Below are positions 2,025 through 38,746 of a stretch of DNA of 47,028 nucleotides, piece by piece. The notes below the pieces were generated by a model. It had not been told where the DNA came from. It saw only the letters and a program-made list of their open reading frames with translations, and made no database searches. Origin of the DNA: Blautia sp. (lineage in GTDB: Bacteria; Bacillota; Clostridia; Lachnospirales; Lachnospiraceae); the NCBI GenBank assembly GCA_017475035.1, contig JAFVGK010000108.1, positions 1 to 47,028 on the forward strand. Reading direction: 5' to 3'. Position 1 is the first letter of the stretch. Every line of letters begins with the position of its first letter. The position numbers were made by a program, and so were the translations under genes.

Positions 2025-2119
2025 AGAGGAGACATATTTTGCCCACGGCCACGGTTTTGCAGGCGTGGCTGCAGAATAGTCATCCGTGATGATTGAGTTA
2101 ACTTCTTATTCAGGAGGAG
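2025..2119 (+). repeat. SD-flanked 95-bp repeat, family 1, copy upstream of proB
   Basis: In gene orientation it starts GAGGAGACATATTTTGCC, continues with an imperfect hairpin (CCCACGG...GCAGGCGTGG) and the conserved AATAGTCATCCG core, and ends in the proB ribosome binding site AGGAGGAG. Both ends therefore carry a Shine-Dalgarno-like sequence. The same unit recurs upstream of leuC, uppP, rnfC, the alarmone synthetase gene and the xylanase gene. Confidence 0.8.
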
Positions 2120-2126
2120 AAAAAAT

Positions 2127-2921
2127 ATGGGAATCAAGAGAAATCGTATTGTCGTGAAGGTCGGTACCTCCACACTGACGAACGAACTGGGCAACACAAA
2201 CCTGCGGACCATGGAAAAGCTGGCGATGACCCTGGCCGATATCCAGAATATGGGTAATGAGGTGATCCTGGTCTCATCCGGCGCAATCGCAGTCGGCGCG
2301 AGCAAAATGCACCTTCCGGAAAGACCCAGGGAAATGAGAATGAAACAGGCAGCGGCTGCCGTAGGCCAGTGTGAGAATATGTTCCTCTATGATAAGTTTT
2401 TTGGCTATTTCCATAAGACCGTGGCTCAGATCCTTCTCAATGCGGAGGATATCACCCAGGAGGTAAAAAAAGAGAACCTGGCCAATACCTTCGAAGCTCT
2501 CCTGGAGCAGAAAATCATCCCGATCGTAAATGAAAATGACTCTGTCAGCTACACCGAAATCGAATCTGAAGACAAACTGTTCGGCGACAATGACATGCTT
2601 TCTGCCGTCGTCGCTGTTTTATGCGCCGCAGATAAGCTTGTGATCCTTTCCGACATCGATGGTTTTTATGATAAAGATCCCAGACTTTATAAGGACGCGC
2701 AGCTGATCAGCCGGATCGAACAGATTGATGACGCAACCTACGCCCTCGCGGGAGGGGCCGGATCCCGAAGAGGCACCGGCGGCATGCGCACAAAGCTGCA
2801 GGCCGCCGAGCTTGCCACCTCCCAGGGGATCGACACGATCGTAACCAACGGACAGAATCCGGAAGCCCTGTATGATATTGTAAAGGGAAAAAAGGTCGGG
2901 ACACTTTTTGTAGCGAAATAG
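2127..2921 (+). CDS. proB: Glutamate 5-kinase
   Basis: A 264-residue amino acid kinase that phosphorylates L-glutamate to gamma-glutamyl phosphate, the first step of proline synthesis, in the cytoplasm. VVKVGTSTLT (about residues 9-18) and LVSSGAIAVG (about 48-57) are the ATP and glutamate-binding glycine loops. IPIVNENDSV (about 131-140) and DNDMLSAVVA are the family signature. The protein stops after the kinase domain, so it lacks the C-terminal PUA domain of enterobacterial ProB; short forms are known. The ATG has GGAGGAG seven bases upstream, inside the repeat element. The usual partner proA is not next to it. The neighbouring leuD gene converges on it from the other strand. Confidence 0.93.
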   Translation: MGIKRNRIVVKVGTSTLTNELGNTNLRTMEKLAMTLADIQNMGNEVILVSSGAIAVGASKMHLPERPREMRMKQAAAAVGQCENMFLYDKFFGYFHKTVAQILLNAEDITQEVKKENLANTFEALLEQKIIPIVNENDSVSYTEIESEDKLFGDNDMLSAVVAVLCAADKLVILSDIDGFYDKDPRLYKDAQLISRIEQIDDATYALAGGAGSRRGTGGMRTKLQAAELATSQGIDTIVTNGQNPEALYDIVKGKKVGTLFVAK

Positions 2922-2987
2922 GGCAGAGGAAGGCGAGGCCTTCACTCTACCCTTCACCCGGCTGCCCGTCACCGACAGGCGGCATCT

Positions 2988-3488
2988 TCACTTACCCATC
3001 CGTTTCCTCATCAGAGGCTTGATGCCTCCTGCCTCGAGGATTTTTAAGGCTTGTTCTCCCAGCTGCTCGCAGGAAAGAACTTCGCCTGTATCTTCGATGG
3101 TGACAGTCCCTTTTTCCAGATTCAGGGTTAAGGTCTGGCCATCCGATACTTTTTCCCGGATGCCTTTACAGATGATGGGAAGAAGGCCGAGATTGACAGC
3201 ATTGCGGAAGAAAATCCTGGCGAACGAATCTGCCAGCACGGCGCGTGCTCCCATGTTCAAAAGAGCGATGGGAGCATGTTCGCGGCTGGAACCGCAGCCA
3301 AAATTTCTCCCTGCCACAACAAAACCGTTCCGGGGAAAGCCGGCGGCAATCGACTCATCCACGCCGGCAAGGCAATGACTGCCGATTTCTTCAGGATCCG
3401 TGATCGCCAGGAAGCGTCCCGGATAGATCTGGTCTGTATCAATATTATCGCCTACGACGATGATTTTCCCTGTCATTTCTGTCTTCAT
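2988..3488 (-). CDS. leuD: 3-isopropylmalate dehydratase-type small subunit
   Basis: A 166-residue swivel-domain subunit of the aconitase superfamily. DNIDTDQIYPGRFL near residues 14-27 and NFGCGSSREHAPIAL near residues 62-76 are the substrate-binding loops of LeuD/AcnA small subunits. It pairs with the large subunit encoded 106 bases upstream to move a hydroxyl group in a 3-isopropylmalate-type reaction in the cytoplasm. The short, separate small subunit belongs to the archaeal/clostridial LeuCD-homoaconitase-dimethylmalate dehydratase group. With no leuA or leuB in the window, the exact substrate cannot be fixed. The start is ATG with AAAGGAG nine bases upstream; a second in-frame ATG follows four codons later. 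Confidence 0.85.
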   Translation of the reverse strand: MKTEMTGKIIVVGDNIDTDQIYPGRFLAITDPEEIGSHCLAGVDESIAAGFPRNGFVVAGRNFGCGSSREHAPIALLNMGARAVLADSFARIFFRNAVNLGLLPIICKGIREKVSDGQTLTLNLEKGTVTIEDTGEVLSCEQLGEQALKILEAGGIKPLMRKRMGK

Positions 3489-3594
3489 AAGAAGCAGCTC
3501 CTTTCCTTGAAAATAACCTCACGTATGCCTGGCCTGTGCAATGACCATAGATGCAGATCCGGACAGATATGAAAGACCCTGTCCTTCCTGTCTG

Positions 3595-4854
3595 TTACAG
3601 ATAATTTCTTGGATCGGTTATTCTTCCGTTGATCATGCTTGCCGCAACCGCAGCCGGGCTTGCCAGATACATCCTCGCCTCCGTGGAGCCCATACGACCC
3701 GGAAAGTTACGGTTCGTGCTGGTGATACAGACCTCTCCCGGAGCCAGAATCCCTTCATGCGCGCCAAGGCACGCGCCGCAGCCCGGAGTTGTGATCGTCG
3801 CGCCGGCGAGCATCAGATCCCGGATATAGCCCTTTTCCATACAGCTGAGCATGACCTCTCTTGAAGCGGGCACTATGATCAGACGGGTATACTCCGGAAT
3901 ATGACGGCCTTTCAGAATCTTTGCCGCAATGGCGATATCCTCCTCGCGTCCGCCGGTGCAGCTTCCGATATAGCCCTGATTCAAAAGCACCTCTCCCTCT
4001 GAGACAACGCTTGCCAGCGTGTGCACATTCTCTACGCTGTTCGGGCAGGCAAGCTGCGGCTCCATAGCCGAAACGTCAAACCGAAAGGAAGCGGCATATT
4101 CATATCCCGGGTCGGTGTACTGTACCTCGAAGGGCCGTACCGCGCGTTTTGACACATAATCGAGAACATCCTGATTCGGCTGCATGTATGCGGTCTTTGC
4201 GCCCATCTCTACCGCCATATTGCAGATTGTCATTCTCCCGGCTACGTTCAGCTGCTCTACATAACTGCCGGTAAAGTCGATGGCTTTATATACGGCACCG
4301 TCTGCGCGGATTTTTCCCAGCACGGCCAGAATCACGTCTTTTGGATAGACTCCCTTCGGCGCCTCTCCGTCGAGCCGCACTTCAATCACCTCAGGAACGC
4401 GGAACCATAATTCTCCCGTCATGAGTATCGTCGCCATATCCGTGGCGCCGCAGCCGGTTCCCATAGCGCCGAAAGCACCGTGGGTCGTGGTATGACTGTC
4501 TGTCGCAACCACGATCATGCCCGGATAAATCACGCCTGCCTCCGGCATCACCTGATGGCAGACGCCGCAGTTTGTGTCAAAATGGAAGCGCAGCCTGTTC
4601 TTCATTGCGAATTCACGCATTTCCTTGTGGTTTGCCGCGCTTTTGATATCCGGCGTCGGCGCGTAATGGTCAAAGACAAAGGCACACCTTTCATTATCCC
4701 ACACCTTTTCTCCGCCCATTTCATAAAAGGAATAGATGGTCTGCAGATACAGATCGTTGATTTCCGCAAAATCCACCTTCGCTGTCACGATTTCACCGGT
4801 TTTTACGGTGGACAGACCACTGTTTTTGGCCAGTATTTTTTCGATTGCATGCAT
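3595..4854 (-). CDS. leuC: 3-isopropylmalate dehydratase-type large subunit (4Fe-4S)
   Basis: A 419-residue aconitase-superfamily protein holding the catalytic iron-sulfur cluster. ATDSHTTTHGAFGAMGTG (about residues 117-134) is the signature. Cysteine ligands are visible in GSCTGGREED (about 298) and in TTPGCGACLGAHEG (about 355-368). With the small subunit it would isomerise or hydrate 3-isopropylmalate in leucine synthesis. The 419-residue form is also used by homoaconitase and 2,3-dimethylmalate dehydratase, so the substrate is inferred. It begins at an ATG with GGAAGGA upstream, at the edge of a family-1 repeat copy, and forms an operon with leuD. Confidence 0.87.
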   Translation of the reverse strand: MHAIEKILAKNSGLSTVKTGEIVTAKVDFAEINDLYLQTIYSFYEMGGEKVWDNERCAFVFDHYAPTPDIKSAANHKEMREFAMKNRLRFHFDTNCGVCHQVMPEAGVIYPGMIVVATDSHTTTHGAFGAMGTGCGATDMATILMTGELWFRVPEVIEVRLDGEAPKGVYPKDVILAVLGKIRADGAVYKAIDFTGSYVEQLNVAGRMTICNMAVEMGAKTAYMQPNQDVLDYVSKRAVRPFEVQYTDPGYEYAASFRFDVSAMEPQLACPNSVENVHTLASVVSEGEVLLNQGYIGSCTGGREEDIAIAAKILKGRHIPEYTRLIIVPASREVMLSCMEKGYIRDLMLAGATITTPGCGACLGAHEGILAPGEVCITSTNRNFPGRMGSTEARMYLASPAAVAASMINGRITDPRNYL

Positions 4855-4860
4855 AGCAAA

Positions 4861-4966
4861 ACTCCTTCCAAAACGAAAATTTGTACATTGCCATAATGAT
4901 TACGGATGACTGTTTTGCAGCCATGCCTGCAAAAAGCGCTGCCGTGGACTGAATATGTCTCCTTTC
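4861..4966 (-). repeat. SD-flanked repeat, family 1, copy upstream of leuC
   Basis: In leuC orientation it begins AAAGGAGACATATTCAGTCC, has a hairpin CCACGGCAGC...GCAGGCATGG, then AACAGTCATCCG, and ends at the GGAAGGAG ribosome binding site of leuC. The leuC-proximal third is more diverged than in the proB copy. Confidence 0.75.
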
Positions 4967-5036
4967 TGAGCTTTGTAAACAGGTGAAAATTACAAAAAGA
5001 ACTCCTATAGTATACGCATGATTTACTGAAGAAAGA

Positions 5037-5050
5037 TGCCGCTCACGCGG
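5037..5050 (-). terminator. Possible weak terminator after the MBL-fold gene
   Basis: GCCGC-GTGA-GCGGC is a perfect 5-bp stem with a tetraloop. It is followed on the minus strand by ATCTTTCTT rather than a clean T-run. It sits between the MBL-fold gene and leuC. Confidence 0.35.
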
Positions 5051-5106
5051 CGTAAATCCGGCGCCTTAAGCGATTCAGAATACAGGCATTCTGTTCGTTT
5101 GCCATA

Positions 5107-5994
5107 CTACCGAAACAGAAAGGAATTCGGGGCTGTCGTATAATCCCATACTGTGACACCCTGTTTTTCAAAATAATTCTTCAGCTTATATGCCGTATAG
5201 CCTTCTCCTGTCATCAGCCATTCGGGAGCGTCAAACAGAGCCGTATCAGAATCCACGGCTTCATAAAAGCGCTTCGGAAAAGAATTGTTCCCGTGATGTC
5301 CCGTCTGCACATATCCGGCGTGAAGCTTTTCTTTCCAGGTATCCATCAGATAATCCGCCAGGGGAGCCTGATGTGCGTCTCCGCAAAAAAGGATGCTGTC
5401 CTTTTTCCCGGAAATCCTGAAGATCAGGGAAGCATTGTTGGGGATATCGTCCCGATAATACCCTTTCAGGCTGTCATCATAGGAATGAAACACTTCCACT
5501 TCCAGATTTTTGATGGAGATAAGATCCCCCGCTTTCAGATAAGTTACGTCTTCGTCCCGAATCAGATCCAAAAACGACCGAAAGCTCTCCGGCGTGTCCC
5601 AGTCCCGGCACACCTCCGAAAAAGTATCCCAGTCCAGTGGCGTGGCGTACACTTTTTTTATCGTGACGCCCCGGGGATTCTGATAGATCGCGTTGAAGGC
5701 AGATATATGATCTCCGTGATAATGGGTCAGGAACCATGCGTCGACCACATTTCCGTTTTCTTCCAGTACGGCGCGCACATAGCTTTCGTTCTCAGGCCAG
5801 CCCCCGTCCACCACGATCAAAGCACCGTTAAAAGGGTTTTTCATGGTATAAAACATTCCCTGGTTTCCGGAAGCATCCGCGTATTGTACCAGAATCCAGG
5901 TCTCATTTTTACGGATCAGCCATCCCACGGCTGCCAAGGCAAGGATCATCACTGCGCCGATTATTATGAAACAACCAACCTTCTTTTTGCGCAT
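5107..5994 (-). CDS. Secreted or membrane-anchored metallo-beta-lactamase-fold hydrolase
   Basis: A 295-residue protein with one N-terminal membrane segment (about residues 6-25, KKKVGCFIIIGAVMILALAA) and an extracellular metallo-beta-lactamase fold. The metal motif HYHGDH is near residue 90. The strand before it reads LIVVDGGWPEN, and a later SILFCGDAH supplies a bridging aspartate. TGHHGNNSF near residue 225 gives another histidine. This arrangement resembles the ComEC/Rec2-like MBL domains that act on nucleic acids, or phosphorylcholine-esterase-type hydrolases, but the substrate is unknown. The chosen ATG at 5994 has AAGGAGG six bases upstream. A longer reading to 6063 adds 23 residues without a better site. 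It follows the ABC-class ATPase gene on the same strand. Confidence 0.75.
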   Translation of the reverse strand: MRKKKVGCFIIIGAVMILALAAVGWLIRKNETWILVQYADASGNQGMFYTMKNPFNGALIVVDGGWPENESYVRAVLEENGNVVDAWFLTHYHGDHISAFNAIYQNPRGVTIKKVYATPLDWDTFSEVCRDWDTPESFRSFLDLIRDEDVTYLKAGDLISIKNLEVEVFHSYDDSLKGYYRDDIPNNASLIFRISGKKDSILFCGDAHQAPLADYLMDTWKEKLHAGYVQTGHHGNNSFPKRFYEAVDSDTALFDAPEWLMTGEGYTAYKLKNYFEKQGVTVWDYTTAPNSFLFR

Positions 5995-6159
5995 CGTTTC
6001 CTCCTTCCGGCACGCAGTTTTACAGGTTGACTCAATATATCTTCCGCAAACAGAACGGATCAATCTGCCGGTTATTTTCCGGCTGTACCTGTCAGAAAAA
6101 GACCGCGTAATAAAGTGACCGATCTCAACGACATCCGCAAAACCCGCGCCGCGCTTTCA

Positions 6160-7941: not shown

Positions 7942-8024
7942 GTATCCCCCTTTTCGAAAATCATATCTGGATGACTGATCCAGACGTCAGCTGTTTTTGA
8001 ATTCTTTATTCTCTTTGCCTGATT

Positions 8025-8150
8025 TTACCTTAATTGAGACTCATTTTCAACAGGAACAATAAATACCTTTACATCCGGCGCGTCTGAATCTGTCCAGGCT
8101 GCGCTGCCGAAACTGTAAAGACCAGATCGCCCTTACCGGACTGGAATGAT
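8025..8150 (-). pseudogene. Possible decayed gene tail
   Basis: Two short minus-strand frames here join through one frameshift (around 8100) into a protein-like end: GKGDLVFTVSAAWTDSDA then PDVKVFIVPVENESQLR and a stop. Each frame is closed by stops about 25-35 codons upstream and neither has a start. The DNA GATTCAGACGCGCCGGATGT in it has a near match at about 31080-31110. Too short for a family call. The rest of 7942-8416 shows only the msmX upstream region. Confidence 0.25.
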
Positions 8151-8240
8151 GTTTAGAGTTTTGACCCTGTAGTTTCCTTTCGCGTAAACCAATTCGTCAA
8201 ACTGTCAATACAGCCTGAATATCTTTGTGCGTTTCAACAC

Positions 8241-12813: not shown

Positions 12814-12817
12814 TGCT

Positions 12818-12882
12818 TCTCCTCCTATAACGCAGTTTTAAACGTTAGCCCAATGTTTTCGGATGACGATTGTACTGCTATG
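12818..12882 (-). repeat. SD-flanked repeat, family 1, truncated copy upstream of uppP
   Basis: In uppP orientation, a TCATCCGAAAACATTGGGC core is followed by AACGTTTAAAACTGCGTTAT and the AGGAGGAG ribosome binding site. The hairpin half is lost or unrecognisable. The rest of 12814-13123 shows no gene or convincing promoter. Confidence 0.7.
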
Positions 12883-13123
12883 AATTTTATCATAGGAAAC
12901 CATCATTTTCAATGGCACATATTATTTTTCCTGTTTTTATCTTTTCCCTATACCCAAACAAAAAGGATTGTGCTATCATATATTCCGTGATCTATCCATA
13001 ATTTATGATGCGGTCACATATCCTAAAGCAATCATCTGGTACCGGCGTGTCTTCTTTTACGCGTTTTCCTTTCTGAAAGCCGGTACAAAAAATATCATAT
13101 TTGTGGAAAGGAGATTTTTGATC

Positions 13124-13947: not shown

Positions 13948-14190
13948 TAGTTTTTTTAATTTTTTTTCGAATCTGAAAACCGGTATCGGTCACTTCACTA
14001 CGACGGCTGACAACAACGCAGCCCGGCTCACAGCCCCTGACGGCCGACAGACCGGTGTCACAATAAACAGTTCCTCAGAAAAAATGTTATTTTCCGGCGG
14101 AGCGGATGTGACATCGATCCGGCAGCCAGCGCAGGCTCTGAAGCCGGGCTTCAGGTTTCACTCAATTATCATTCTTTTTATGCCGCTGCA

Positions 14191-14258
14191 TTGATATCAT
14201 TTTTTACGGGCATTGTCTGCTGCTTTGATATCATTTCAGCCGGGCATTGTCTGCATCG
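14191..14258. repeat. 34-bp tandem duplication at the end of rnfB
   Basis: TTGATATCATTT and CGGGCATTGTCTGC recur with a period of 34 bases (14191-14224 and 14225-14258). The second unit includes the rnfB stop codon, so the last codons of rnfB have been copied downstream. The stretch 13950-14190 shows no gene; a CTGAAGC-CCG-GCTTCAG stem near 14143-14160 lacks a T-run. Confidence 0.7.
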
Positions 14259-15051
14259 TTATAATCTTAGCCGGGCATTTCTCCGCGCATTTGCCGCAGC
14301 CAATACATTTCTCATAATCAATATGGGCAATGTTATTGGTGACGGTAATCGCTCCGTTCTCGCACTGCTTGACGCAGAGGCTGCAGGCACGGCAGCCTGC
14401 GTCGCACTGTGTCTTCAGGACCGGGAAGCGCTCCGTATTGGAGCACTGCACCGTATACTGCGCTTTCATCGGGATGATCTCGATCAGATGCTGCGGACAT
14501 GCCGCCGCGCACTTGCCGCAGGCAACACATTTTGTACGATCCACCTTTGCGATGCCGTCCACGATGTGAATCGCATCAAACTGGCAGGCCGCCACGCAGG
14601 TGCCATAGCCAAAACAGCCCTGCGCACAGGCTTTATCGCCTCTGCCCGGTGTAGCCGCCACTGCTTCGCAGGTCTTGATGCCGACATAGGTGCCCTTTTT
14701 CTTTGCCTTGTCGCAGGTTCCCGCGCACTTGACAAAGGCAACCATCTTTTCTGCCTCACCGTCAGCGCCGACGCCCATAATCTCGGAAATCTTATCTGCT
14801 ACAGCCGATCCGCCAACCGGGCAGGCATTGACCGGCGCCTCACCTCTGGCAATAGCCCCGGCAACCGCGTCACAGCCGGCATAACCGCAGGCACCGCAGT
14901 TATTTCCGGGAAGGCAGGCACGGACATCAATTTCCCTCTGGTCAACCTCGACCTTAAATTTCTCTCCGGCAAAAACCAGCAAAATACCAATCACCAGGCC
15001 GATCACTGCCAGAAGGACAATCGTAAGAATTATCATCATACCACTATTCAT
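14236..15051 (-). CDS. rnfB: Rnf complex subunit B (ferredoxin-binding iron-sulfur protein)
   Basis: A 271-residue subunit of the ion-pumping ferredoxin:NAD+ oxidoreductase. An N-terminal membrane helix (about residues 5-28) anchors it. A four-cysteine cluster domain follows (CLPGNNCGACGYAGC, about 46-60, with a further Cys near 77). Later come CAGTC and CAQGCFGYGTCVAACQF. Then two ferredoxin-type 4Fe-4S repeats: CVACGKCAAACP, and CIGCGKCAEKCP near the C-terminus. It takes electrons from reduced ferredoxin and passes them to the membrane flavin subunits. It is the last gene of the rnf operon, 15 bases after rnfA. Confidence 0.96.
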   Translation of the reverse strand: MNSGMMIILTIVLLAVIGLVIGILLVFAGEKFKVEVDQREIDVRACLPGNNCGACGYAGCDAVAGAIARGEAPVNACPVGGSAVADKISEIMGVGADGEAEKMVAFVKCAGTCDKAKKKGTYVGIKTCEAVAATPGRGDKACAQGCFGYGTCVAACQFDAIHIVDGIAKVDRTKCVACGKCAAACPQHLIEIIPMKAQYTVQCSNTERFPVLKTQCDAGCRACSLCVKQCENGAITVTNNIAHIDYEKCIGCGKCAEKCPAKIITMQTMPG

Positions 15052-19494: not shown

Positions 19495-19712
19495 CAGTTT
19501 TGATCAATTATGTTCGGATGAAAACAGCCGCAGGCTTTTATCCCCGCAGACAACGTCTCCTCACAAAACGCAGTTTTATACGTTGACTCATGATCACGGA
19601 TGACTATTTTGCAGCCACGCCTGCAAAAAACGCAGCCGTGGGCAAAATATGTCTCCTCACAAAACGCAGTTTTCGCAGTTTTGTGTTGACTCAATGTCTT
19701 CGGATACGGTTC
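19495..19712 (-). repeat. SD-flanked repeat, family 1, tandem array upstream of rnfC
   Basis: One full unit (19555-19658) carries hairpin CCACGGCTGC/GCAGGCGTGG, core AATAGTCATCCGTGATCATG, and AAAACTGCGTTTTGTGAGGAG at its upstream border in rnfC orientation. It abuts a partial unit (about 19651-19712) and a strongly diverged one (about 19495-19560, recognisable by TTTTCATCCGAAC). The array lies between tatC and rnfC and would be in the rnf leader or promoter region. No other gene is seen in 19274-19784. Confidence 0.75.
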
Positions 19713-19720
19713 TGACCGGG

Positions 19721-20760: not shown

Positions 20761-20928
20761 TTGAAGACCTCCTGTTAAAAAATTATATAAAGCGGCATGG
20801 CAAAAATGACTCGTCCTGCCACTATGACACCCGCGCCAATGCGAGGAATCTTCTTCTGTGTTATCTGTTTATATGTTTTCTGTTTCTGTGTTATCTTTTT
20901 TTATACTGTCCGTTTATATGTCGTCTGT

Positions 20929-21474
20929 TTATATTTTGTCTGTTTCGGCGCCGGCTTCCGCGCTTCCCTCCGCTGCAGAGACTGTCTTATCTGCATCCTC
21001 TGTTTCTGCGCCTTCGGCCGCTCCGGAGACATTTTCTTTTATCTGCTCTGTTCCGGCTCCCGCTTCTGCGGCCTCTGCTGTTTCAGAGACGTTTCCTTTC
21101 GTGTCCGCTGTTTCCTCTGTATCCTTTGACGTCTCCTCTTCGGAGCTGTCTGCTGCTGTTTCTTCAGCTTTCTCTTCTGTCTTTTTTGACGGCTTTGTCA
21201 GGCCTTTCAGAGAGGACTCTACGCTTTTGATGGAATCGTCAATCTCCTTTTTGGCTTCCATAATAGGATCGATCGCTTCTTTTAAAGGACGCTGTGCTTC
21301 CTCGAGGGGATCTACGACACTTTCCTTAAACTCTTTTGTCATATCATTCGTTGCTTTTTTAAACTCATTCATGGCCTTGCCGAACTTTTTCGCGTACAGC
21401 GGGAGCTTGTCCGGCCCGATCACAACCAAAGCAATGATGAAAATGACCACTAGTTCCCAAACACCGATTTTCAT
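20929..21474 (-). CDS. Second TatA/TatB-like subunit with long acidic tail
   Basis: A 181-residue protein. Residues 1-60 have the Tat layout: membrane helix ELVVIFIIALVVIG, GPDKLPLYAK hinge, amphipathic KKFGKAMNEFKKA. Residues about 60-181 are a long, low-complexity tail rich in Glu, Ala, Thr and Ser. The length and long tail recall TatB, while the helix is TatA-like. It may act as a TatB substitute in a TatABC-like set, which is unusual in Firmicutes that normally use TatA plus TatC. It is the first gene of the tat operon, with GGGGATA before the ATG, and diverges from apbE across 126 bases. Confidence 0.8.
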   Translation of the reverse strand: MKIGVWELVVIFIIALVVIGPDKLPLYAKKFGKAMNEFKKATNDMTKEFKESVVDPLEEAQRPLKEAIDPIMEAKKEIDDSIKSVESSLKGLTKPSKKTEEKAEETAADSSEEETSKDTEETADTKGNVSETAEAAEAGAGTEQIKENVSGAAEGAETEDADKTVSAAEGSAEAGAETDKI

Positions 21475-23944: not shown

Positions 23945-24054
23945 CGACAAAAGCCTGATTCTGCGGATCGCTCCCAGCAGAGCTACTCTCATGTCTGTGG
24001 ACGACAAAAGGTCATGTACAAATGAGCTTTCTCATCTGTGCATGACCTTTTGTC
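23945..24054. repeat. Hairpin repeat, family 2, short copy
   Basis: It starts CGACAAAAGCCTGATTCTGC like position 1 of the window and ends with a GGTCATG...AATGAG/CTCAT...CATGACC hairpin and TTTTGTC. It lacks the 140-base middle part of the copy at 1-252. A family-1 remnant follows at once. Confidence 0.75.
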
Positions 24055-24068
24055 TTTTCCTGAAACGC

Positions 24069-24150
24069 TCTTCTCTTAAAACACAGTTTTATACTGACAT
24101 TCTTTTCCCGGATGATAATTCTGCTGCGTCTGCATCCGGATCATGGCTGA
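24069..24150. repeat. SD-flanked repeat, family 1, decayed copy
   Basis: AAAACACAGTTTTATACTGAC, then CCCGGATGATAATTCTGCTGC, then a GC-rich stretch, in the same order as the intact units. It lies after the BIG2 gene (minus strand) rather than before a gene. The rest of 23617-24174 is tRNA-Ala, its signals and family-2 repeat. Confidence 0.55.
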
Positions 24151-24174
24151 AGCATTTCCTGTACCGCCGGTATC

Positions 24175-27912: not shown

Positions 27913-27921
27913 ATTTTACAG

Positions 27922-28112
27922 CTCCTCTTTTAATGAAGTTTTTTACGTTGATTCAACGTTTTCGAAGGACCATTTTGCTGCTTCGGCAGTCGGGCTGCCA
28001 AAGACAGAATCAGTCTCCTCTTTAGCGAAGTTTTATACGTTTACTCAATGTTCCCGGATGATGATTTTGCCGCTTCGGCAGTCGGGCTGCCAAAGACAGA
28101 ATCAGCCTCCTC
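27922..28112 (-). repeat. SD-flanked repeat, family 1, tandem pair
   Basis: Two units of about 95 bp (27922-28021 and 28014-28112) share GGCAGCCCGACTGCC hairpins, a TCATCCGGGAAC or GGTCCTTCGAAAAC core, and a GAGGAG-type border. The inner copy lies between the MoxR and alarmone-synthetase genes and ends in the latter's ribosome site. The outer copy supplies the 3' end of the MoxR gene. Confidence 0.85.
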
Positions 28113-29603
28113 TATTTTTTTCAGAATTGCCCGGCTGCGATCCTCATACAACAGCTCCTGGTTGTATCGGTCATAGCGTTCGCAGGCATATCGTTTTAAG
28201 AAACGGACACTGTACGGATTCGCATTCAGCTCCGTGAGAAAGAGGACAATCTCCTGCCCCTGGCCGAAAAGGACCTCCAGGCAGTCAAACGCATATTCCA
28301 GTGTCCGAGCGGCCTGTGCATGGCTCTTTTCATAATTCTGTCTCTCCCGGCCGAATTCCCCGGATATCCGCTCAAAGGTTTCCTGTGCCGTCTCTGCATC
28401 CGCAAGCTCTTTCCTGATTCCGGAAAGAAAGCTTTCCACGCGGATGGAGACATGCTTTTCTTCCCTTGTAAGAAGCTCCGCCTTTGTTTCAGTCTCTCTT
28501 TGGGCGGATATCCGCAGCACCAGATCGTCCAGCACCAGAGCAGGGTCTGTTCCTTCTGATGAAAGCAGCAGAGTTTTCGCCTTTGACAAAGTCTCATGCA
28601 GGGCTGTCATATACTCCTCCTCCCTGCAGTAAGCAAGAAAGCTCTGCCGGCATCTGGCCAGAATCAGACCGAGTACCCCATATCTCTCGTCAAACGAGGC
28701 ATGGGCGATTTTCTTGATGAGAATGTCGGGAATATGCCCTGCAAAAACCTCATCCATGGCGTAATCCGCTTCATACTTGTGAAACAGCTCCCAGTAATTG
28801 GCAAAGTCCCTGGCAATCGCCGGATATTGAATATAGGAAGTGACCGTATCGCGGTCCACTCCTTTTTTCAGCGATTCATAGACCCACAAAAGCCTGGAAA
28901 GATCCTCCCAGCCTCTGGGGGTCGCGAAGAATCTCCCGTCCACGGTGGTCTCCATCCGGCAGAAATACTGCGGTTTTGCCTGGAGATAGGCCAGAACAGC
29001 CGGATGTACATTTGCCTGATAAGCATATTCCTTCCAGGCGTCAAAATCCGGTTCCACATCCATTCTCTTGACACGGTCCATTGTCACCACATCGAATTCC
29101 CGCACGGACCGGTTATATTCCGGCGGATTCCCCGCTGCCACGATAATCCATCCCCTGGGAATCTGCAGATTTCCGAAGGTTTTGCACTGAAGGAACTGCA
29201 GCATCGCCGGCGCCAGGGTCTCAGAGACACAATTGATCTCATCGATAAATAAGATTCCCTCTCTGAGCCCGGTCTGTTCCATCTTCTGATACATGGAAGC
29301 AACGATCTCGCTCATCGTATACTCTGTCACGGAATACTTTTTCCCGTCAAAGGTCTCCTCCGATATGAACGGCAGGCCGATGGCGCTCTGCCTCGTGTGA
29401 TGCGTGATCGTATAGGAGACCAGAGCCAGCTTCATTTTCTGGGCGATCTGTCCCATGATCTGTGTCTTTCCGATTCCCGGAGGACCGATCAGAAAAATCG
29501 GCCGCTGGTGAATAATCGGGATCACATAATCCCCGTCACCGTCTTTGAGAAGATAGGCCTCGATCGTATCCATGATTTCGGCCATTGCCCGTTTTATATT
29601 CAT
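28041..29603 (-). CDS. MoxR-type AAA+ ATPase
   Basis: A 520-residue cytoplasmic AAA+ protein. Walker A is GPPGIGKT (residues 40-47), Walker B ILFIDE (117-122), sensor 1 AAGNPPEYN (about 157-165), and arginine residues follow in DVVTMDRVKR. A long helical C-terminal region (about 300-500) replaces the usual lid. MoxR ATPases work with VWA proteins as chaperone-like pairs that insert metals or remodel complexes. The gene starts one base after the VWA gene, with GAGGAGG inside the VWA end. The last 22-23 residues (ADSVFGSPTAEAAKSSS and onward) are encoded by a copy of the interspersed repeat, so the native C-terminus has been replaced. Confidence 0.88.
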   Translation of the reverse strand: MNIKRAMAEIMDTIEAYLLKDGDGDYVIPIIHQRPIFLIGPPGIGKTQIMGQIAQKMKLALVSYTITHHTRQSAIGLPFISEETFDGKKYSVTEYTMSEIVASMYQKMEQTGLREGILFIDEINCVSETLAPAMLQFLQCKTFGNLQIPRGWIIVAAGNPPEYNRSVREFDVVTMDRVKRMDVEPDFDAWKEYAYQANVHPAVLAYLQAKPQYFCRMETTVDGRFFATPRGWEDLSRLLWVYESLKKGVDRDTVTSYIQYPAIARDFANYWELFHKYEADYAMDEVFAGHIPDILIKKIAHASFDERYGVLGLILARCRQSFLAYCREEEYMTALHETLSKAKTLLLSSEGTDPALVLDDLVLRISAQRETETKAELLTREEKHVSIRVESFLSGIRKELADAETAQETFERISGEFGRERQNYEKSHAQAARTLEYAFDCLEVLFGQGQEIVLFLTELNANPYSVRFLKRYACERYDRYNQELLYEDRSRAILKKIEEADSVFGSPTAEAAKSSSGNIE

Positions 29604-32297: not shown

Positions 32298-32366
32298 GAA
32301 ATTCTTATGAGGCGCGCCTGACACCGGCAGTCGGCATCTTTCTTAAGGCGATCCCTGCCATACCAT

Positions 32367-32402: not shown

Positions 32403-32434
32403 ATCGAGGACGGGAAGATCCGATTCTTTCTGCC

Positions 32435-33115: not shown

Positions 33116-33133
33116 AATCAGTCCCCTTCAATA

Positions 33134-33517
33134 TCAAAGATCGTTCAACATCGCCATCAATTCGTCGACGCTAAGATTCTGAAGCTGTTCATCCTGCTTC
33201 CTGCTGATAATATCCAGGATTTTTTTCTTCTTCTGGCTGTTTTCCACTGCCTTTTTGGCGTTTTCCCGCTCCGTAAGCTTATAGGCAACAATGTAACGGA
33301 TGATCGCAACTTTATTCCGAAGCGTCTCACCTTCCTTGGATTTCTCCGTCAGCAGGCTCTCCTCTTCCGTTTTCCGGATCTCATCATTCAGTCCTTTGAA
33401 AATCTTGTCCAGCTGCTCTACACTCAGATCCCAAAGGTCTTCCGTCGTGATCTGGCCGCGGAAATTATAACGATATTTTTCGCGAAGAGCAATCTCAAAA
33501 ATATTCTTTTCCGGCAT
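33134..33517 (-). CDS. Uncharacterised 127-residue charged helical protein
   Basis: No signal or membrane segment. The N-terminal part (NIFEIALREKYRYNFRGQIT, then EDLWDLSVEQLDKIFKGLND) looks like a small folded domain. Residues about 50-110 are helical and Lys/Glu-rich. The end (EQLQNLSVDELMAMLNDL) repeats the LSVxEL pattern of the middle. From memory, similar small proteins occur in bacteriophages and are usually next to genes like the 690-residue one; this is recollection, not a search. RBS AAAGGAG precedes the ATG. I assign no function. Confidence 0.6.
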   Translation of the reverse strand: MPEKNIFEIALREKYRYNFRGQITTEDLWDLSVEQLDKIFKGLNDEIRKTEEESLLTEKSKEGETLRNKVAIIRYIVAYKLTERENAKKAVENSQKKKKILDIISRKQDEQLQNLSVDELMAMLNDL

Positions 33518-33592
33518 CCTTATCGGCTCCTTTCTGTCATTTCACATTTCACACGGATTTTTACTCCGAAATGCTTCCGCCTGCCGGCGGCA

Positions 33593-33642
33593 CCTGTCAA
33601 AAAAAGCTCGCTTATTCCGCTGTGCCCGCTTTTTTTGACAGG
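33593..33642. other. 15-bp inverted repeat between the 690- and 127-residue genes
   Basis: CCTGTCAAAAAAAGC and its exact complement GCTTTTTTTGACAGG are separated by 20 bases. The T-run lies inside the stem rather than after it. It could be an attenuator, a terminator or a processing site within the operon. Confidence 0.7.
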
Positions 33643-33696
33643 CACATCCGGGCAAAAATCCTCAGCAACCTGTTCCGTTTATTTTCATCCGGCTCC

Positions 33697-35769
33697 TTAA
33701 AAAACAATCTTCAGAATTCTCTCTGACGTTCCGGTCACCTTCACTACGAGCTCGGCGTGTTTTGTGCTGGAAAAACCCAGGCCGGAGAGCTGATCCGGGG
33801 TGTCCTGGACCTTTGCCTTTAAGCCGAGCATTTCCAATACTCTTTTATGCGGACCCAGTTCGTTCCGAAGCTGTTCATTGTAAAAGCCGTTCGGAGATTC
33901 ATCATTGGCACAGTCCTTCAGCATAAAGAAATAATGCCGGTTGCCGACTCCATTTGCCTCATCCCACCAGTTCGGCGACAGGCAGACCACAGATACGGGA
34001 ACAAACTGATTGGTAGTGATTCCCCATACCGTCGTCCCATGTGCTGTTACTCCGGAGGGAAGGATATCCTTGATGGTAAAATATCCGTCTTTTGACAGAT
34101 TTACGACAGCAACCTCTACCTTTCCTCCGTTTCTCGTATTCTGGGAATAATCATAGGAATGAAGCTCCCCATCAGCCTCTACTTCCGCCCGGAAACCTCC
34201 CGTGCCTCCACGGCCTGCAAAGGTATGGACAAAAAAGCGGTAGTCTCCCGGTTTCATGCTGTCCAAAGAGGGCCAGGTAATGTTTTCCACGGCAGGCACA
34301 TTTTTCTGGGGATGTGTGATATCCACATCGAGATTGCCCCGTGTAGCGCTGTCAACCTTTTTTCCAAAGTAAATCTCAAATCCGTTTGGTTCTATACAAT
34401 GGGCATCCTCATCATTCTGATTCCATCTTTCCAGGTCGTTCCACTGGATGGAAAAACGGAGCACCCCATCCACTTTGCCGCCGGCGTTCTTTACACGTTC
34501 TTTCAGAAGAGAGTCCGCAACATTCCCTCGGTATGCCCAGCTGAAGCCATTTCCCCACTTAAATAAAGTAGGTGCCTGGGGATTCACCGGAGCAATCAGG
34601 GAAACAAGATTGGGGATATGCCTGTTTTCAAAAAAGAGTTCCAGAGACCGTGCCGTGGGAAGCACCTTTTCCACAAACTCCTGGATCCCGATCGTCTGTA
34701 CCCTGGAAAACTGTTTCGGATCAGCCTTTACCTCTTTTTTCATCTCCGTAAAGAAAGATTCCGCCCCTGTCGCCCCGATAATCCTCCTGGCGGCATCCCT
34801 GTTGGAGAACAGGATATCGTTGACCCTGATATCATTGAGGGTGGCAAACCGGCGAAGCAGGGAATCCATAAATCCAAGCTTCTCGATCGTTTCCCTGGCC
34901 TCATCCAGCATTCTCTGCGTAAAAATCGCCTGAGGACGCTTATAATTGGTCGGAGCCATGATACTTTCCCACTGACGCACGGCCTGCTCAAGATCCATCT
35001 CCTCCGAGATATTAGCCAGGAGTGTCCCCATGCTGTGGTTTTTGATCCGCGCGATCACATTTCCGACCTGAACCGACTTTTCCCAGAGATACAGATCTCT
35101 GACCCGTCTGTCTTCGGGAAGATGATCATATTCTGTCTTATATTTTCTGAAGTCCTGCAGGGCGCCCTTCCATTCCTCTCCACGGTAAAGGGAATTCTGG
35201 GCGATCAGCTCCAGAACGATATCAATGGCTTCCAGAGAGATCTCTGTCAGGGATCTTCCGAATACCTCTTTTGTCGTCTTTGCTTCACCCAACAGCTCAC
35301 TTTTCTGCCAGGGATCCACAACATAAGCCGCAGGTACTTTGGCATACAGATGATGCCAGGTAATGACCTGTCCATCCTCACACAGCTCCGGAGTCTTCTC
35401 CTGCCCTATGGACTGCGTCCTGGGGAAAAACCGGTTATCGATCGGCAGGGCTTTGGCGGCATCGGAGAGCTTTTTCGCCACATCCTTAAAATAATCAGAG
35501 GCTTCAAAATCCCAGATGCTCACCAGATGGCCATTCTCAATCGCAACTACATTCGCGCAGTTCCGGAAAAAATTTCTGCAGGCGCTGCAGTCAAATCTCC
35601 TGCGTTTACGAAAGATCGGGTTATGCTCCCGGGGAATCGAATCAAGATAAATCTGCCATAGTTCCAGGCAATCTGCCTCGGTGACATACAATGACCTGTG
35701 TTCTTTGCACATGTTCTCAAAATGGGTACGTACTTCGTCGATAAATGCCGGATAGAAAGGATCGTTCAT
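33697..35769 (-). CDS. Uncharacterised 690-residue protein with DUF2135-like C-terminal region
   Basis: A soluble protein with no signal peptide. Near residue 61 a CSAC...C cluster (Cys61, 64, 71) may bind zinc. Residues about 165-345 are helical (SLTEISLEAIDIVLELIAQN; RPQAIFTQRMLDEARETIE). Residues about 400-570 are beta-rich. The run DEDAHCIEPNGFEIYFG (453-469), GNLDVDI (478-484), ENITWPS and GDYRFFVHTFAG (508-519) follows the pattern of DUF2135 (YfaP-like) domains, which often accompany VWA and MoxR proteins. The C-terminus is LSGLGFSSTK...ILKIVF. From memory, close relatives occur in phage genomes next to a short protein like the downstream one. RBS AAGGGGGGG precedes the ATG. The function is unknown. 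Confidence 0.6.
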   Translation of the reverse strand: MNDPFYPAFIDEVRTHFENMCKEHRSLYVTEADCLELWQIYLDSIPREHNPIFRKRRRFDCSACRNFFRNCANVVAIENGHLVSIWDFEASDYFKDVAKKLSDAAKALPIDNRFFPRTQSIGQEKTPELCEDGQVITWHHLYAKVPAAYVVDPWQKSELLGEAKTTKEVFGRSLTEISLEAIDIVLELIAQNSLYRGEEWKGALQDFRKYKTEYDHLPEDRRVRDLYLWEKSVQVGNVIARIKNHSMGTLLANISEEMDLEQAVRQWESIMAPTNYKRPQAIFTQRMLDEARETIEKLGFMDSLLRRFATLNDIRVNDILFSNRDAARRIIGATGAESFFTEMKKEVKADPKQFSRVQTIGIQEFVEKVLPTARSLELFFENRHIPNLVSLIAPVNPQAPTLFKWGNGFSWAYRGNVADSLLKERVKNAGGKVDGVLRFSIQWNDLERWNQNDEDAHCIEPNGFEIYFGKKVDSATRGNLDVDITHPQKNVPAVENITWPSLDSMKPGDYRFFVHTFAGRGGTGGFRAEVEADGELHSYDYSQNTRNGGKVEVAVVNLSKDGYFTIKDILPSGVTAHGTTVWGITTNQFVPVSVVCLSPNWWDEANGVGNRHYFFMLKDCANDESPNGFYNEQLRNELGPHKRVLEMLGLKAKVQDTPDQLSGLGFSSTKHAELVVKVTGTSERILKIVF

Positions 35770-35836
35770 TTGTGTTCCCCCCCTTTTGTTTACAACCTGA
35801 TGTGTTTCCGTCGGAACCGTTCTCTAAAAAGTCTGT

Positions 35837-35863
35837 CCCGGATGACCTGTCTTTTTATCCGGG
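35837..35863. other. Hairpin in the leader of the 690-residue gene
   Basis: CCCGGAT and ATCCGGG flank a 13-base loop, between the putative promoter and the start codon. Confidence 0.5.
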
Positions 35864-35888
35864 CGCATATCTCAAAAATCAGTGACAT

Positions 35889-35917
35889 AGTAAAGAACAG
35901 TTTCGTTTATTTATCAA
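35889..35917 (-). promoter_or_regulatory. Possible promoter of the 690-residue gene
   Basis: Minus strand TTGATA (complement of 35912-35917), 17 bases, TTTACT (complement of 35889-35894). The leader would be about 110 bases. Confidence 0.4.
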
Positions 35918-36203
35918 TCTGATACCAAGACGAAGCAAAATGCATTTTTAATCCGTTTATCCTAATTTAACACAATATATTTCCATGCACAAGGGGGGGA
36001 TGGTATCCGTAAAGATACTTTTCTCTGGATACTTCTTTTCTTATATGTTATACTCGTGAACGCATTTAACTGCACCTTTCGGATTGGAAGGGAAGCGCGT
36101 TCACTCGTTATACGTTAAGCATATCGGCAGACATTTCCGTTATCGAGTATAAACTATATTTCCAGATGAGATGAAGCATCAGGAAGCGACAGTGACTGAT
36201 TTT

Positions 36204-36230
36204 TTACCGGCTTCTAAGGTGCCGGTCAAA
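36204..36230 (+). other. Hairpin upstream of the YczE-like gene
   Basis: ACCGGC-TTCTAAGGT-GCCGGT between a TTTTTT run and CAAAATCG. It could be a leader hairpin. The rest of 35918-36289 shows no gene. Confidence 0.4.
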
Positions 36231-36289
36231 ATCGTGATCCGAATACATTGTGTCAGCGTACAGGACTTCGTTTAGGGAGGAGAAATAAA

Positions 36290-36952
36290 ATGAACCGGAA
36301 AATCATTCTGAAACAATGGCTGCAGATTGCAGCCGGACTGCTTGTATTTGCCTTTGGCGTCCATCTGACGATCCATGCGAATATCGGTCTGGCTCCATGG
36401 GACTGCCTTGGAATGGGAATCGCGAAACATACTCCGCTGAACTACGGCCTTTCCATGACAATCATCGCAGTCTGCGTCCTTGGGATTGATCTCCTGATAA
36501 AAGAGCGCATCGGGTTCGGAACAATCATAGACGCCGTTCTGACAGGTAATTTTGTACAGATGTTCAATGATCTGGATCCTCTGCCGGAAAACAGCAGCCT
36601 GCTTCTCGGAATCGTTTTTATGCTTGTCGGGTTTGTCTTTATGGCTTTAGGCATGTGGATCTACATGAGCGCAGAGGAATGCTGCGGTCCAAGAGATTCT
36701 CTGCTGGTCGGACTGGGAAAGCTCTTCCCGTCGATCCCGATCGGTATTGTGGAAATAGCTTTGTGGACGATCGTCCTGCTGGCGGGATGGCTCCTGGGCG
36801 GTCCTGTCGGAATCGGAACCCTCGTCAGTACATTAGGCGCCGGCGCGGTCATGCAGCTGGTATATCATATCATCCGCTTCGAGCCGAGAGATTTAAAGCA
36901 TAAAGACGTACTGGAGGTCGCTGCGGCTTTTGTCAGAAACCAATCCATGTGA
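36290..36952 (+). CDS. YczE/YyaS/YitT-type membrane protein
   Basis: A 220-residue protein with about five membrane helices and the typical YczE pattern: GLLVFAFGVHLTIHANIGLAPWD (about residues 14-36), then GMGIAKHTPL, YMSAEECCGPRDSLLVGL (about 127-144) and a GP-rich fifth helix (GGPVGIGTLVSTLGAG). The family has no proven transport role. The ATG at 36290 has GGGAGGAG seven bases upstream; the longer reading from 36248 has none. Confidence 0.8.
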   Translation: MNRKIILKQWLQIAAGLLVFAFGVHLTIHANIGLAPWDCLGMGIAKHTPLNYGLSMTIIAVCVLGIDLLIKERIGFGTIIDAVLTGNFVQMFNDLDPLPENSSLLLGIVFMLVGFVFMALGMWIYMSAEECCGPRDSLLVGLGKLFPSIPIGIVEIALWTIVLLAGWLLGGPVGIGTLVSTLGAGAVMQLVYHIIRFEPRDLKHKDVLEVAAAFVRNQSM

Positions 36953-37023
36953 TTCCGGCAGCGGAAGGCCGGACAAAATAATCCATTGCTCCGCCTCTGT
37001 CATAAAAAAGTTCCTTCATCAGA

Positions 37024-37239
37024 TGCTGGAACGAGTTCTCCTTCGCCCTGGTCCTCATCAAGGATGTCGCCCTGCAGACCGTGCCCCTTGCCCTGACCCA
37101 GTTCAAAGGGCAGTTCGCCTCTGATTATCCCAAACAGATGGCTGCAATGTTAATCACCATGTCGCCGATCATTGCTCTTTACTTTATCTTCAGCAAACAG
37201 ATCATCAAAGGCATGGTGGCAGGCGCCGTAAAAGGCTGA
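37024..37239 (+). pseudogene. Remnant of a carbohydrate ABC transporter permease
   Basis: A 71-codon frame without a start; a stop lies six codons upstream. It ends in a normal stop. It encodes the C-terminal end of a MalG/LacG-type sugar permease: CWNEFSFALVLIKD near the start (WNEF of the EAA loop/last helices), TVPLALTQFKGQF, then AAMLITMSPIIALYF and the family ending KGMVAGAVKG. The N-terminal three quarters of the gene are missing. Its original terminator is still present after it. It lies between a YczE-like gene and a xylanase, so it may have been the permease of a xylo-oligosaccharide importer. Confidence 0.88.
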
Positions 37240-37246
37240 CCAGAAA

Positions 37247-37280
37247 AGAGGAGCCAGACAATGTCTGACTCCTCTTTTTC
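37247..37280. terminator. Terminator after the permease remnant
   Basis: AGAGGAG-C-CAGAC/GTCTG-A-CTCCTCT stem followed by TTTT. It also faces the end of the convergent xylanase gene. Confidence 0.85.
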
Positions 37281-37323
37281 GCGCCTTCTTTCCTCCCGGC
37301 ATAACACCGAAATGAAATATGTA

Positions 37324-38604
37324 TTACCCGGCGGTGACCGGCGTCCCAACGAAGACAACGGGCACAGTTCCCGGGTTCTTGCCCCATTGGAAGGAGCCGG
37401 CTGCTCCCTCGCATTCCAGCTCGTAGCTGCCGCGGTATCCGTCAAATTGCACCATGCCATCCGCATCCGTGACAGCCTCTTTCTTTGTGGTCCACTCTTC
37501 GTGGATCAGCCTGTACAGCGCCTCATAGGACGGCTTTATCGAATTGTCCTTCCGAATCAGACCGGTAGGAGCCCCAAGCCACGCCCCATCCGCAAAATCC
37601 CAGCCGGTGACGGCTTCCACAAGGGGATGCGCAAAAAGAATTTCCATCATTTCCTTCCATTCTTTTGCCTGCCGTTCTTCTCCGTCCGGTGTCGTAGGCC
37701 ATTCCGGGATCTGATAGTCATTCAGGTCAATGATTTCCGGCGGCATCAGATGTCCGGATACCAGTGAATTTTCCGTAAAATGCAAAGGAAGGCCAAATAC
37801 GGAAAAACGTTCCAGAACGTCCTCCAGCCAGGCTTTCCCTTTATATCCCTGGTGCTGATGCGTCTGAATGCCGATCGCGCCGATCGGTACCCCTGCGTTC
37901 AGGCAGCCGTCGATCAGAATCCTGTAGCTCTCGGAAAGATTAAAATCGTTGATCAATAACAAGGCGTCCGGATTTGCCGTCCTGGCAGCCGCAAACACTT
38001 CCTTCACCAGTCCCACACGTCCCAGATCCCTGCAGATCCGGGTAACGGCATTATCATACCGGTCAAAAACAGGCATGATGACAACCTCGTTTATGACATC
38101 CCAGATATCAATCAGCCCTTTAAACCCGCTGACGTCTCTGTCTATTCTGGCAAGCTGTTTGTCCAGAATTGTATGATTGTCATATTTCATCAGCCAATCC
38201 GCGCACACAGTATGCCAGCACAGCGGATGCCCCTTCACCTTTGCCCCGTGAGATACCAGATAGTTCGCGGCGCGTTTCCTGCTTTCTGCCTGAGGCTCCC
38301 CTTCACAGGGCTCATACCTTCCCCAGTAAAAAGGCAGGGTTCCGTAATTAAACATCCTGGTCCATTTGTTCATCCTGTCCTCATAAAAAGCCAGGTCCGA
38401 AGGAGCTTTTTCTCCCTCATCTGTCAGGGGAAGGCTGTCAAAGGCCCCGCACCCAAACAAAAATTCATGGTTGGTCTGTCTGATCGAAACCTTTTTTCCG
38501 GACAGGGGACGCCCCTGCGGATCCGTCAGTTTCAGAAAACCTGATGACCTGCGATGTGCATATTTTGCTTCATTTCTTTCCATTTCTTCAAACCTTTTTT
38601 TCAT
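37324..38604 (-). CDS. GH10 endo-beta-1,4-xylanase, cytoplasmic
   Basis: A 426-residue glycoside hydrolase family 10 enzyme. A short beta-strand N-terminal part (FLKLTDPQGRPLSGKKVSI, about residues 23-41) precedes the barrel. Substrate-site residues are in KGHPLCWH (about 123-130). The acid/base glutamate is in IDIWDVINEVV (about 165-175). The nucleophile is in LPLHFTENSLV (about 273-283), replacing the usual TELD. GWDFADGAWLGAPTGL near 345 closes the barrel. There is no signal peptide, so it should act on imported xylo-oligosaccharides. A second ATG at 38583 has the better spaced AAAAGG; the first ATG lacks a clear site. It lies beside the decayed sugar permease. Confidence 0.9.
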   Translation of the reverse strand: MKKRFEEMERNEAKYAHRRSSGFLKLTDPQGRPLSGKKVSIRQTNHEFLFGCGAFDSLPLTDEGEKAPSDLAFYEDRMNKWTRMFNYGTLPFYWGRYEPCEGEPQAESRKRAANYLVSHGAKVKGHPLCWHTVCADWLMKYDNHTILDKQLARIDRDVSGFKGLIDIWDVINEVVIMPVFDRYDNAVTRICRDLGRVGLVKEVFAAARTANPDALLLINDFNLSESYRILIDGCLNAGVPIGAIGIQTHQHQGYKGKAWLEDVLERFSVFGLPLHFTENSLVSGHLMPPEIIDLNDYQIPEWPTTPDGEERQAKEWKEMMEILFAHPLVEAVTGWDFADGAWLGAPTGLIRKDNSIKPSYEALYRLIHEEWTTKKEAVTDADGMVQFDGYRGSYELECEGAAGSFQWGKNPGTVPVVFVGTPVTAG

Positions 38605-38611
38605 TTCATTG

Positions 38612-38656
38612 ACAAAAGTCTCGTTCCGGGGATCGCTTCATAGCAGAGCTGCTCCT
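38612..38656. repeat. Family-2 repeat, truncated copy
   Basis: GACAAAAGTCTCGTTCC, GGGGATCGCTTC and AGCAGAGCTGCTC match the start of the copies at 1 and 23945. The hairpin part is missing and a family-1 copy follows directly. Confidence 0.6.
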
Positions 38657-38746
38657 CTTACAATGTTGATTGTAAACCGACATACCGTCCGGATGACTGT
38701 TTTGTTGCCTGTCGCGCTTCACGCTCCGGGACAGAATATGTCTCCC
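38651..38746 (-). repeat. SD-flanked repeat, family 1, copy upstream of the xylanase gene
   Basis: In xylanase orientation it begins GGGAGACATATTCTGTCCC, has a GC-rich variable hairpin segment, then AACAGTCATCCGGACGG, and ends AAGAGGAGC. The order is the same as the proB copy. Confidence 0.75.

Follow-up and report, generated by a model that had tools for sequence, protein, structure and literature searches.

A probable non-autonomous mobile element that inserts at Shine-Dalgarno-like sites in a Blautia genome

Elements of the IS200/IS605 family carry hairpins near both ends, have no terminal inverted repeats (TIRs) and insert 3' of a short target. Rickettsia palindromic elements insert inside reading frames, the insertion being tolerated by the host gene, and mobile elements limit harm by settling in safe sites, among them tRNA genes and terminators. 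Here we describe an interspersed repeat noticed in a window of 47,028 bases, i.e., the entire contig C78 of a draft Blautia genome (5.08 Mb, 200 contigs; hereafter, the source genome). Our best explanation, to which we assign a probability of about 0.86, is that this repeat is a non-autonomous mobile DNA element of ~90–97 nt inserting directly 3' of GGAG-like sites, mostly inside Shine-Dalgarno (SD) sequences and in the direction of the gene.

With the small palindromic elements derived from IS200/IS605 (PATE-like), the repeat shares predicted hairpins near both ends, the lack of TIRs (in its types A and B) and, apparently, insertion 3' of a short target; it differs in that none of the fetched TnpA loci held an element copy, and in the target itself, GGAG, which is repeated by the element's tail. 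As with Rickettsia palindromic elements, insertion appears to be tolerated by the host gene, in reading frames there and in a translation signal here. The likeness to the REP/RAYT system lies in many small palindromic copies per genome, extragenic and without a gene of their own. However, whereas REPs measure 20–40 bp with GTAG or CGTC at one end according to PMC3733652 (whose main text lacks the strings "Firmicutes" and "Clostridi"), the present element is ~90–97 nt long, carries CGTC in its subfamily type A but AGTC at that position in type B, and has no Y1 locus with a copy among those fetched. BOX, RUP and SPRITE of pneumococcus, portrayed in the available text of PMC3049150 as interspersed structured repeats that are held to be parasitic and patchy between species, resemble it in structure and in patchy distribution; BOX and RUP differ by their TIRs and target duplications (PMC3049150), and SD-renewing insertion is not described for BOX, RUP, SPRITE or REPs in the available text of these two articles. 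Judged by analogy, the element would rank as a non-autonomous mobile repeat of small size, rich in hairpins and unusual in its target, with REP, BOX, RUP and SPRITE nearest in kind. A first-pass annotation of the window knew of no named element with this structure, and none emerged from Rfam 15 (no covariance-model match up to E 0.05 at any window copy) or from a literature search covering titles and abstract openings, with most subscription journals outside its scope.

The repeat proved to be real and abundant. A covariance model (CM) derived from 41 copies of the source genome, 3 of them from the window, matches every place listed in the first-pass annotation. A consensus scan (local alignment with consensus strings of three subfamilies, types A, B and C, over the window plus 60 stretches of the source genome, 1,241,628 bases altogether) yielded 197 copies (136 of type A, 40 of type B and 21 of type C) vs. 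none in the reversed sequence; the first 447 kb of the scanned sequence held 86 copies. Across the whole source genome, a 21-nt tail pattern (up to 3 mismatches) gave 210 matches vs. 4 for the reversed pattern, and the CM search gave at least 150. What the data show directly is these dispersed copies, together with filled and empty sites, their junctions and the spacing from tail to start codon.

Filled and empty states were compared by searching the flanks of 23 copies from three gut genomes, G089 (RUG13128), G091 (RUG006) and G092 (SRR873600_bin.3), across those same genomes. Ten sites were aligned base by base, six of them with clean junctions; among the remaining 13 copies are ones present in both genomes, ones without an orthologue and ones left unaligned (e.g., L204). 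At all six clean sites the insert measures 95–97 nt and begins with ACAT, and at five of them it interrupts a native SD immediately 3' of GGAG or GAG. With a slash marking the point of insertion, the site upstream of rplM (site 7; TIGR01066) reads ATCAGGAG/GAAATATTCATG when empty, in G089 and G091, and is filled in G092 (+97 nt), while the site upstream of clpX (site 8; NF003745) is filled in G091, empty as ACGAAAAGAG/GAGATAATATG in G089 and similarly empty in G092. Site 2 is empty in G091 and G092 (GACAGGAG/GAGTTATTATG) and filled in G089; site 6 is empty in G092 (TTTCAGGAG/GAACAATGG) and filled in G089 and G091; site 9 is empty in G089 (AAAGAGGAG/GGGTAAATTATG) and filled in G092. Site 4, which is not an SD in the element's direction, is empty in G089 (CTCAGGCG/GTGCATCG) and filled in G091. 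The insert ends with GGAG at sites 2, 7, 8 and 9, with GGTG at site 6 and with GGGAAGAT at site 4; at the first four of these sites, the spacing between the final GGAG or GAG and the start codon is unaltered by insertion or shortened by one base. The early suggestion that insertion takes place at ribosome sites and duplicates the SD is borne out to this extent, with five of the six clean junctions inside a native SD and four of these five restoring GGAG at the same or one-off spacing. At sites 2 and 8, the polarity favours insertion, because the closer relative of the filled genome and the third genome are both empty; flank identities mostly make G089 and G091 the closer pair, with exceptions. 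At sites 1 and 3, one relative keeps only the 3' part of the copy, and comparison of the two states suggests that 5'-shortened copies may arise by deletion sparing the SD end.

The association with gene starts extends to the source genome. Of the copies in the 1.24 Mb, 140 have an intact 3' end and sufficient sequence beyond it; 98 of these end 3–15 nt before the start of an open reading frame (ORF) of at least 60 aa (82 of them ATG; commonest spacing, 8), vs. 13.2% of 36,600 random positions, and in 10 of the 42 misses a tandem copy comes next. In the first 447 kb, 50 of 66 tails precede an ORF start, vs. 20% for any GGAG. The 5' side bears a related signature: in 107 non-tandem copies, purines occupy 312 of the 428 positions in the four-base stretch ahead of the 5' GGAG, vs. 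0.50 at all GGAG sites (Fisher p 1.5e-21, positions taken as independent), a flank resembling that of native SDs, which suggests that copies of the source genome also sit in former SDs.

If the element moves as proposed, the insert would begin with AC and typically end with GGAG; the target GGAG would become the 5' strand of a predicted basal stem (GGAGAC with GTCATCC), and the tail would join the leftover SD bases to give an SD again at about the old distance from the start. Genes with an inserted copy are probably still translated, and most surviving copies would stand at starts since other insertions have presumably been purged. Tandem copies would find an explanation as well, because every insertion would create a fresh GGAG at which further copies can insert. 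We consider it likely, although with less confidence than the insertion itself, that the element represents a class of mobile elements targeting the SD itself, with the tail as replacement SD, i.e., a safe-site strategy at translation initiation that has brought several hundred copies into the genome and into the ribosome-binding sites of about one in ten host genes. If so, a ribosome-binding site that is chosen and restored would add a new type of safe site; it would also amount to a natural experiment, in which the reading of a four-base target and the effect of a hairpin on expression become testable. Of 935 crude ORFs with 100 aa or more in the 1.24 Mb, 87 start 3–15 nt after an element tail, so that the parasite may now set translation initiation for numerous unrelated genes, rplM and clpX in relatives among them.

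In copies of types A and B, read in gene orientation, GGAGAC is followed, after a short spacer, by ATTTTG and CAAAAT with a variable inner hairpin between them; then come GTCATCC(G), a linker containing TTGAGTCAAC, hairpin 2 and GGGAGGAG. Hairpin 2 is CAAAAC-loop-GTTTTG in types A and B and TTACAAT...ATTGTAA in type C. Four of the five A/B copies that were folded singly are predicted to form the pairs GGA-GAC/GTC-A-TCC (or a close variant) and ATTTTG/CAAAAT, the fifth (L048) having a longer variant hairpin, and the single type C copy is predicted to fold differently at its base. The 5' GGAGAC, earlier taken for a free SD-like sequence, is thus predicted to be the stem partner of the GTCATCC core instead. 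One type B copy (L033:12071-12171) has its TCATCCG core replaced in such a way that the hairpin is a long palindrome, as if by template switching.

Several points weigh against a mobile element of the proposed kind. Four of the ten aligned sites (1, 3, 5 and the tenth, L143) are not clean at the junction; the insertion at site 4 occurred at CAGGCG, which is not an SD, and left a non-GGAG tail, as did the insertion at site 6. An exact deletion between GGAG repeats could mimic an empty site, and the polarity favours insertion only at sites 2 and 8, not at 4, 6, 7 and 9. All filled/empty comparisons come from relatives and not from the window's species. The copy number of ~800 per genome, extrapolated from the 1.24-Mb consensus scan, may be an overestimate, the scanned stretches lying on contigs already known from earlier match lists. 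The search for a mover is likewise unfavourable: there are 16 matches to Y1_Tnp (PF01797) in six of the seven carrier genomes, none with an element copy in the fetched locus (these being draft genomes), and G062, with 39 copies, is without a PF01797 match, in a search that did not extend to IS91-type or other transposases or to reverse transcriptases. Pairs of left and right ends within 4 kb number three in 1.24 Mb, none of them around a transposase; two abut each other (mosaic copies), and the third, with ends 1.5 kb apart, flanks a Condensation-domain gene.

As to what moves the element, the candidate we would place first, tentatively and at somewhat less than even odds, is a single-strand mechanism of the HUH type (Y1; IS200/IS605 or REP-like), with a transposase that would read the hairpins and use TCATCC as a guide for GGAG. 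We infer such a mechanism because of the predicted hairpins near both ends, the short target 3' of which insertion takes place and the pairing of the target GGA with the internal TCC; the absence of TIRs in types A and B is in keeping with it. Insertion by IS200/IS605 derivatives takes place 3' of a fixed tetra- or pentanucleotide and duplicates no target; the six clean junctions here follow GGAG, GAG or GGCG, and a duplication of GGAG would be indistinguishable. Against this candidate stand the lack of a tnpA locus with an element copy among those fetched, the missing match in G062 and the lack of a clear leading/lagging bias (66 of 87 copies vs. 230 of 332 ORFs, strand by GC skew).

A cut-and-paste (DDE-type) element, whose target-site duplication of 4–5 bp happens to be (A)GGAG, is in our estimate a distinctly weaker candidate. 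With GGAG on both sides, junctions cannot separate such a duplication from an element-borne GGAG, and site 2 has CAGGAG on both sides; in an initial set of 64 copies, the 5'/3' match summed across eight positions exceeds that of shuffles (p 0.017, from one upstream position), and the bases ahead of the tail GGAG turned out to be less species-typical than initially judged. What counts against it is the absence of TIRs in types A and B, the inverted match of the ends being 0–3 of 10 in types A and B under both readings of the ends and 1–5 of 10 in type C (6 with a shift, which is borderline), as well as the behaviour of 80 non-tandem full copies, in which 5' and 3' variants are uncorrelated at GGAG (p 0.13 to 1) and only weakly correlated upstream (p 0.085).

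The second option of the first-pass annotation, a cis-acting RNA leader (a translation or stability module) kept by selection and not primarily mobile, is unlikely. It draws support from the use of the tail as SD, from predicted folds more stable than those of shuffles in four of six copies (z-scores of –3.4 to –5.4, vs. –1.2 in the other two) and from truncation, in that 37 5'-truncated copies with an intact tail stand against 17 3'-truncated copies with an intact 5' end in the 1.24 Mb. Yet the adjoining genes are unrelated in function, the empty sites already have an SD, and the element was not seen upstream of proB in ten relatives, whose upstream regions could not be aligned.

The pattern of change within subfamilies bears on the same question. 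A mixed-type alignment gave no pairs in RNAalifold, we surmise owing to a conflict between the inner hairpins of types A and B, and each type was then analysed by itself (for type A with 35 of 40 full copies, for type B with 23 of 24). In type A, 84.4% of cells pair, and the percentage paired and the covariation score are reached by only 2 and 3 of 500 shuffles, respectively, although kinship among sequences can beat shuffles without constraint. Double-sided changes are not clearly raised: 11 pairs vs. 7.3 (reached by 32 of 500 shuffles) and 13 cells vs. 8.9 (47 of 500), with 14 to 23 double-changed cells in slid controls vs. the 13 of the real pairing; a direct count gave 22 double changes, 13 of them still paired, vs. 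17 expected from column frequencies. In type B, 55 single changes break a pair and 32 keep it, and the sole double change, with 2.8 expected, is unpaired. We read the variation within subfamilies as mostly post-insertion decay, together with some weak indication of constraint in type A. The early statement that the hairpin varies in sequence with pairing kept holds between subfamilies A, B and C; within types, the evidence of compensatory change is weak.

Spread via RNA, by reverse transcription of a structured leader, appears less probable still. A structured RNA and the excess of 5' truncations would suit it, but that excess shrinks to 13 vs. 10 in the first 447 kb, and the shorter state at sites 1 and 3 is readable as the outcome of a later deletion, the relative having a longer copy. 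Finally, the idea of unrelated leaders alike by chance or convergence, which has only their shared SD function in its favour, is refuted by the null scans, with their zero counts, and by 23 type B copies from different loci, whose mean column identity is 87% over ~105 nt.

The non-autonomous mobile element favoured here is patchily distributed. Among 64 congeneric genomes, the tail pattern (up to 1 mismatch) occurs in four, with 103 matches in the source genome, 5 in G062, 4 in G086 and 2 in G032. A core-pattern scan of 84,980 species genomes, from which records very near the source genome may have been left out, gave seven matching stretches, which come from five assemblies: Blautia sp. RGIG5706 (sheep duodenum) and the uncultured Lachnospiraceae RUG13128 and RUG12824, Clostridiales RUG006 and Clostridia SRR873600_bin.3 (the RUG prefix marks rumen genomes). 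The RGIG5706 record belongs to the same assembly as G062 and RUG12824 to the same as G086, both in the window's genus, and the three carriers beyond the congeners, G089, G091 and G092, are metagenome-assembled gut genomes of Lachnospiraceae/Clostridia. CM matches number 39 in G062, 11 each in G086 and G032, 1 in G018, 28 in G089, 31 in G091 and 35 in G092, vs. 0 in ten other congeners. A type-B left-end pattern, which misses carriers of other types alone, was found 36 times in the source genome and in one other (G435) of 397 genomes of the family, once; the G435 match falls within a reading frame and is probably fortuitous. The tail pattern has three matches in G052, of the same order, and one pattern searched in viral contigs gave none. 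Some loci of the relatives show further features: L203:621-843 (G091:C88) holds three tandem units ~87 nt apart, each made of the element's 3' half and a repeated spacer. L205:654-753 and L208:682-783 represent one insertion shared by G091 and G092; it contains a long GCAGCCGCGAAT...ATTCGCGGCCGC hairpin, and the flanks searched there are 97–100% identical, above many other loci of these two genomes. Upstream of position 4722 in L153 (G089:C156), another short repeat, its units with GTACCGTACCGCGAACG, lies upstream of an element copy.

Within the window, most (but not all) copies stand directly before gene starts, as had been claimed of all of them; flanking genes were checked with hidden Markov models. 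The type B copy at 2026–2121 (+; CM 70.1 bits, also found by local alignment), its hairpin 2 decayed, ends with GGAGGAG just before the start of proB (2127; TIGR01027). A full type B copy at 4860–4964 (–; 82.1 bits) ends with AAGGAG just before the start, at 4854, of an ORF assigned by family matches to the aconitase/3-isopropylmalate dehydratase large-subunit (LeuC) family, and at 12817–12913 (–; 47.5 bits; local alignment 12819–12879) a decayed copy, recognisable in its 3' half, has its tail GGAGGAG just before uppP (start 12813; NF001391). Two type A copies stand in tandem at 27920–28020 (–; 87.0 bits) and 28013–28112 (–; 84.5 bits) with a GAGGAG common to both, the former ending with AGAGGAG just before a RelA/SpoT-domain gene (start 27912; PF04607). 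Two matches are additional to those first listed: a type A copy at 36189–36284 (+; 53.7 bits), whose tail GGGAGGAG precedes an ATG at 36290 of a possible YczE-like membrane protein (NF052291 at E 8e-37 but below cut-off; no Pfam match), and a weak 5'-truncated remnant at 5999–6061 (–; 16.6 bits, E 0.017; local alignment 6001–6044, score 18.5) with its tail GGAAGGAGG before an ATG at 5994. The palindromes at 27.9–28.1 kb, read on their opposite strand, account for two further weak CM matches (E 0.075 and 0.46).

Direct placement before a gene start does not apply to three window copies. A full type B copy near the consensus at 19555–19658 (–; 96.0 bits; local alignment 90.4) ends ~170 nt upstream of the rnfC ORF (start 19384; TIGR01945), with a partial type A copy in tandem upstream of it at 19674–19714 (–; local alignment score 27.7). 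No downstream gene start was found for the decayed type A copy recognised at 24069–24150 from the outset, which the CM matches at 24068–24161 (–; 31.8 bits). The full type C copy at 38650–38747 (–; CM 31.4 bits; 92.8 against a type C consensus that it helped to define), with TTACAAT...ATTGTAA as hairpin 2, has its tail facing an 11-codon frame, the GH10 ORF (start 38604; PF00331) following ~48 nt further on.

The upstream AAA ORF (28041–29603; PF07728) stops inside the 28013–28112 copy (overlap 28026–28110), which would add ~22 residues to its C-terminus; in the 1.24 Mb, an upstream co-directional ORF ends inside the copy for 8 of 132 5'-intact copies. Apart from the element, the window contains a match to the Clostridiales-1 RNA (RF01699, 52.8 bits) at 70–262 (–), within which a repeat at 183–249 recurs at 23988–24054; another at 1–28 recurs at 23945–23972 and, weakly, at 38610–38637, the latter two adjoining element copies. 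A second repeat family (window 1–28, 183–249, 23945–24054 and 38610–38637) may thus exist beside the element. Short direct repeats with spacings of 15 nt and ~34 nt are present at 20854–20946 and 14185–14283, respectively.

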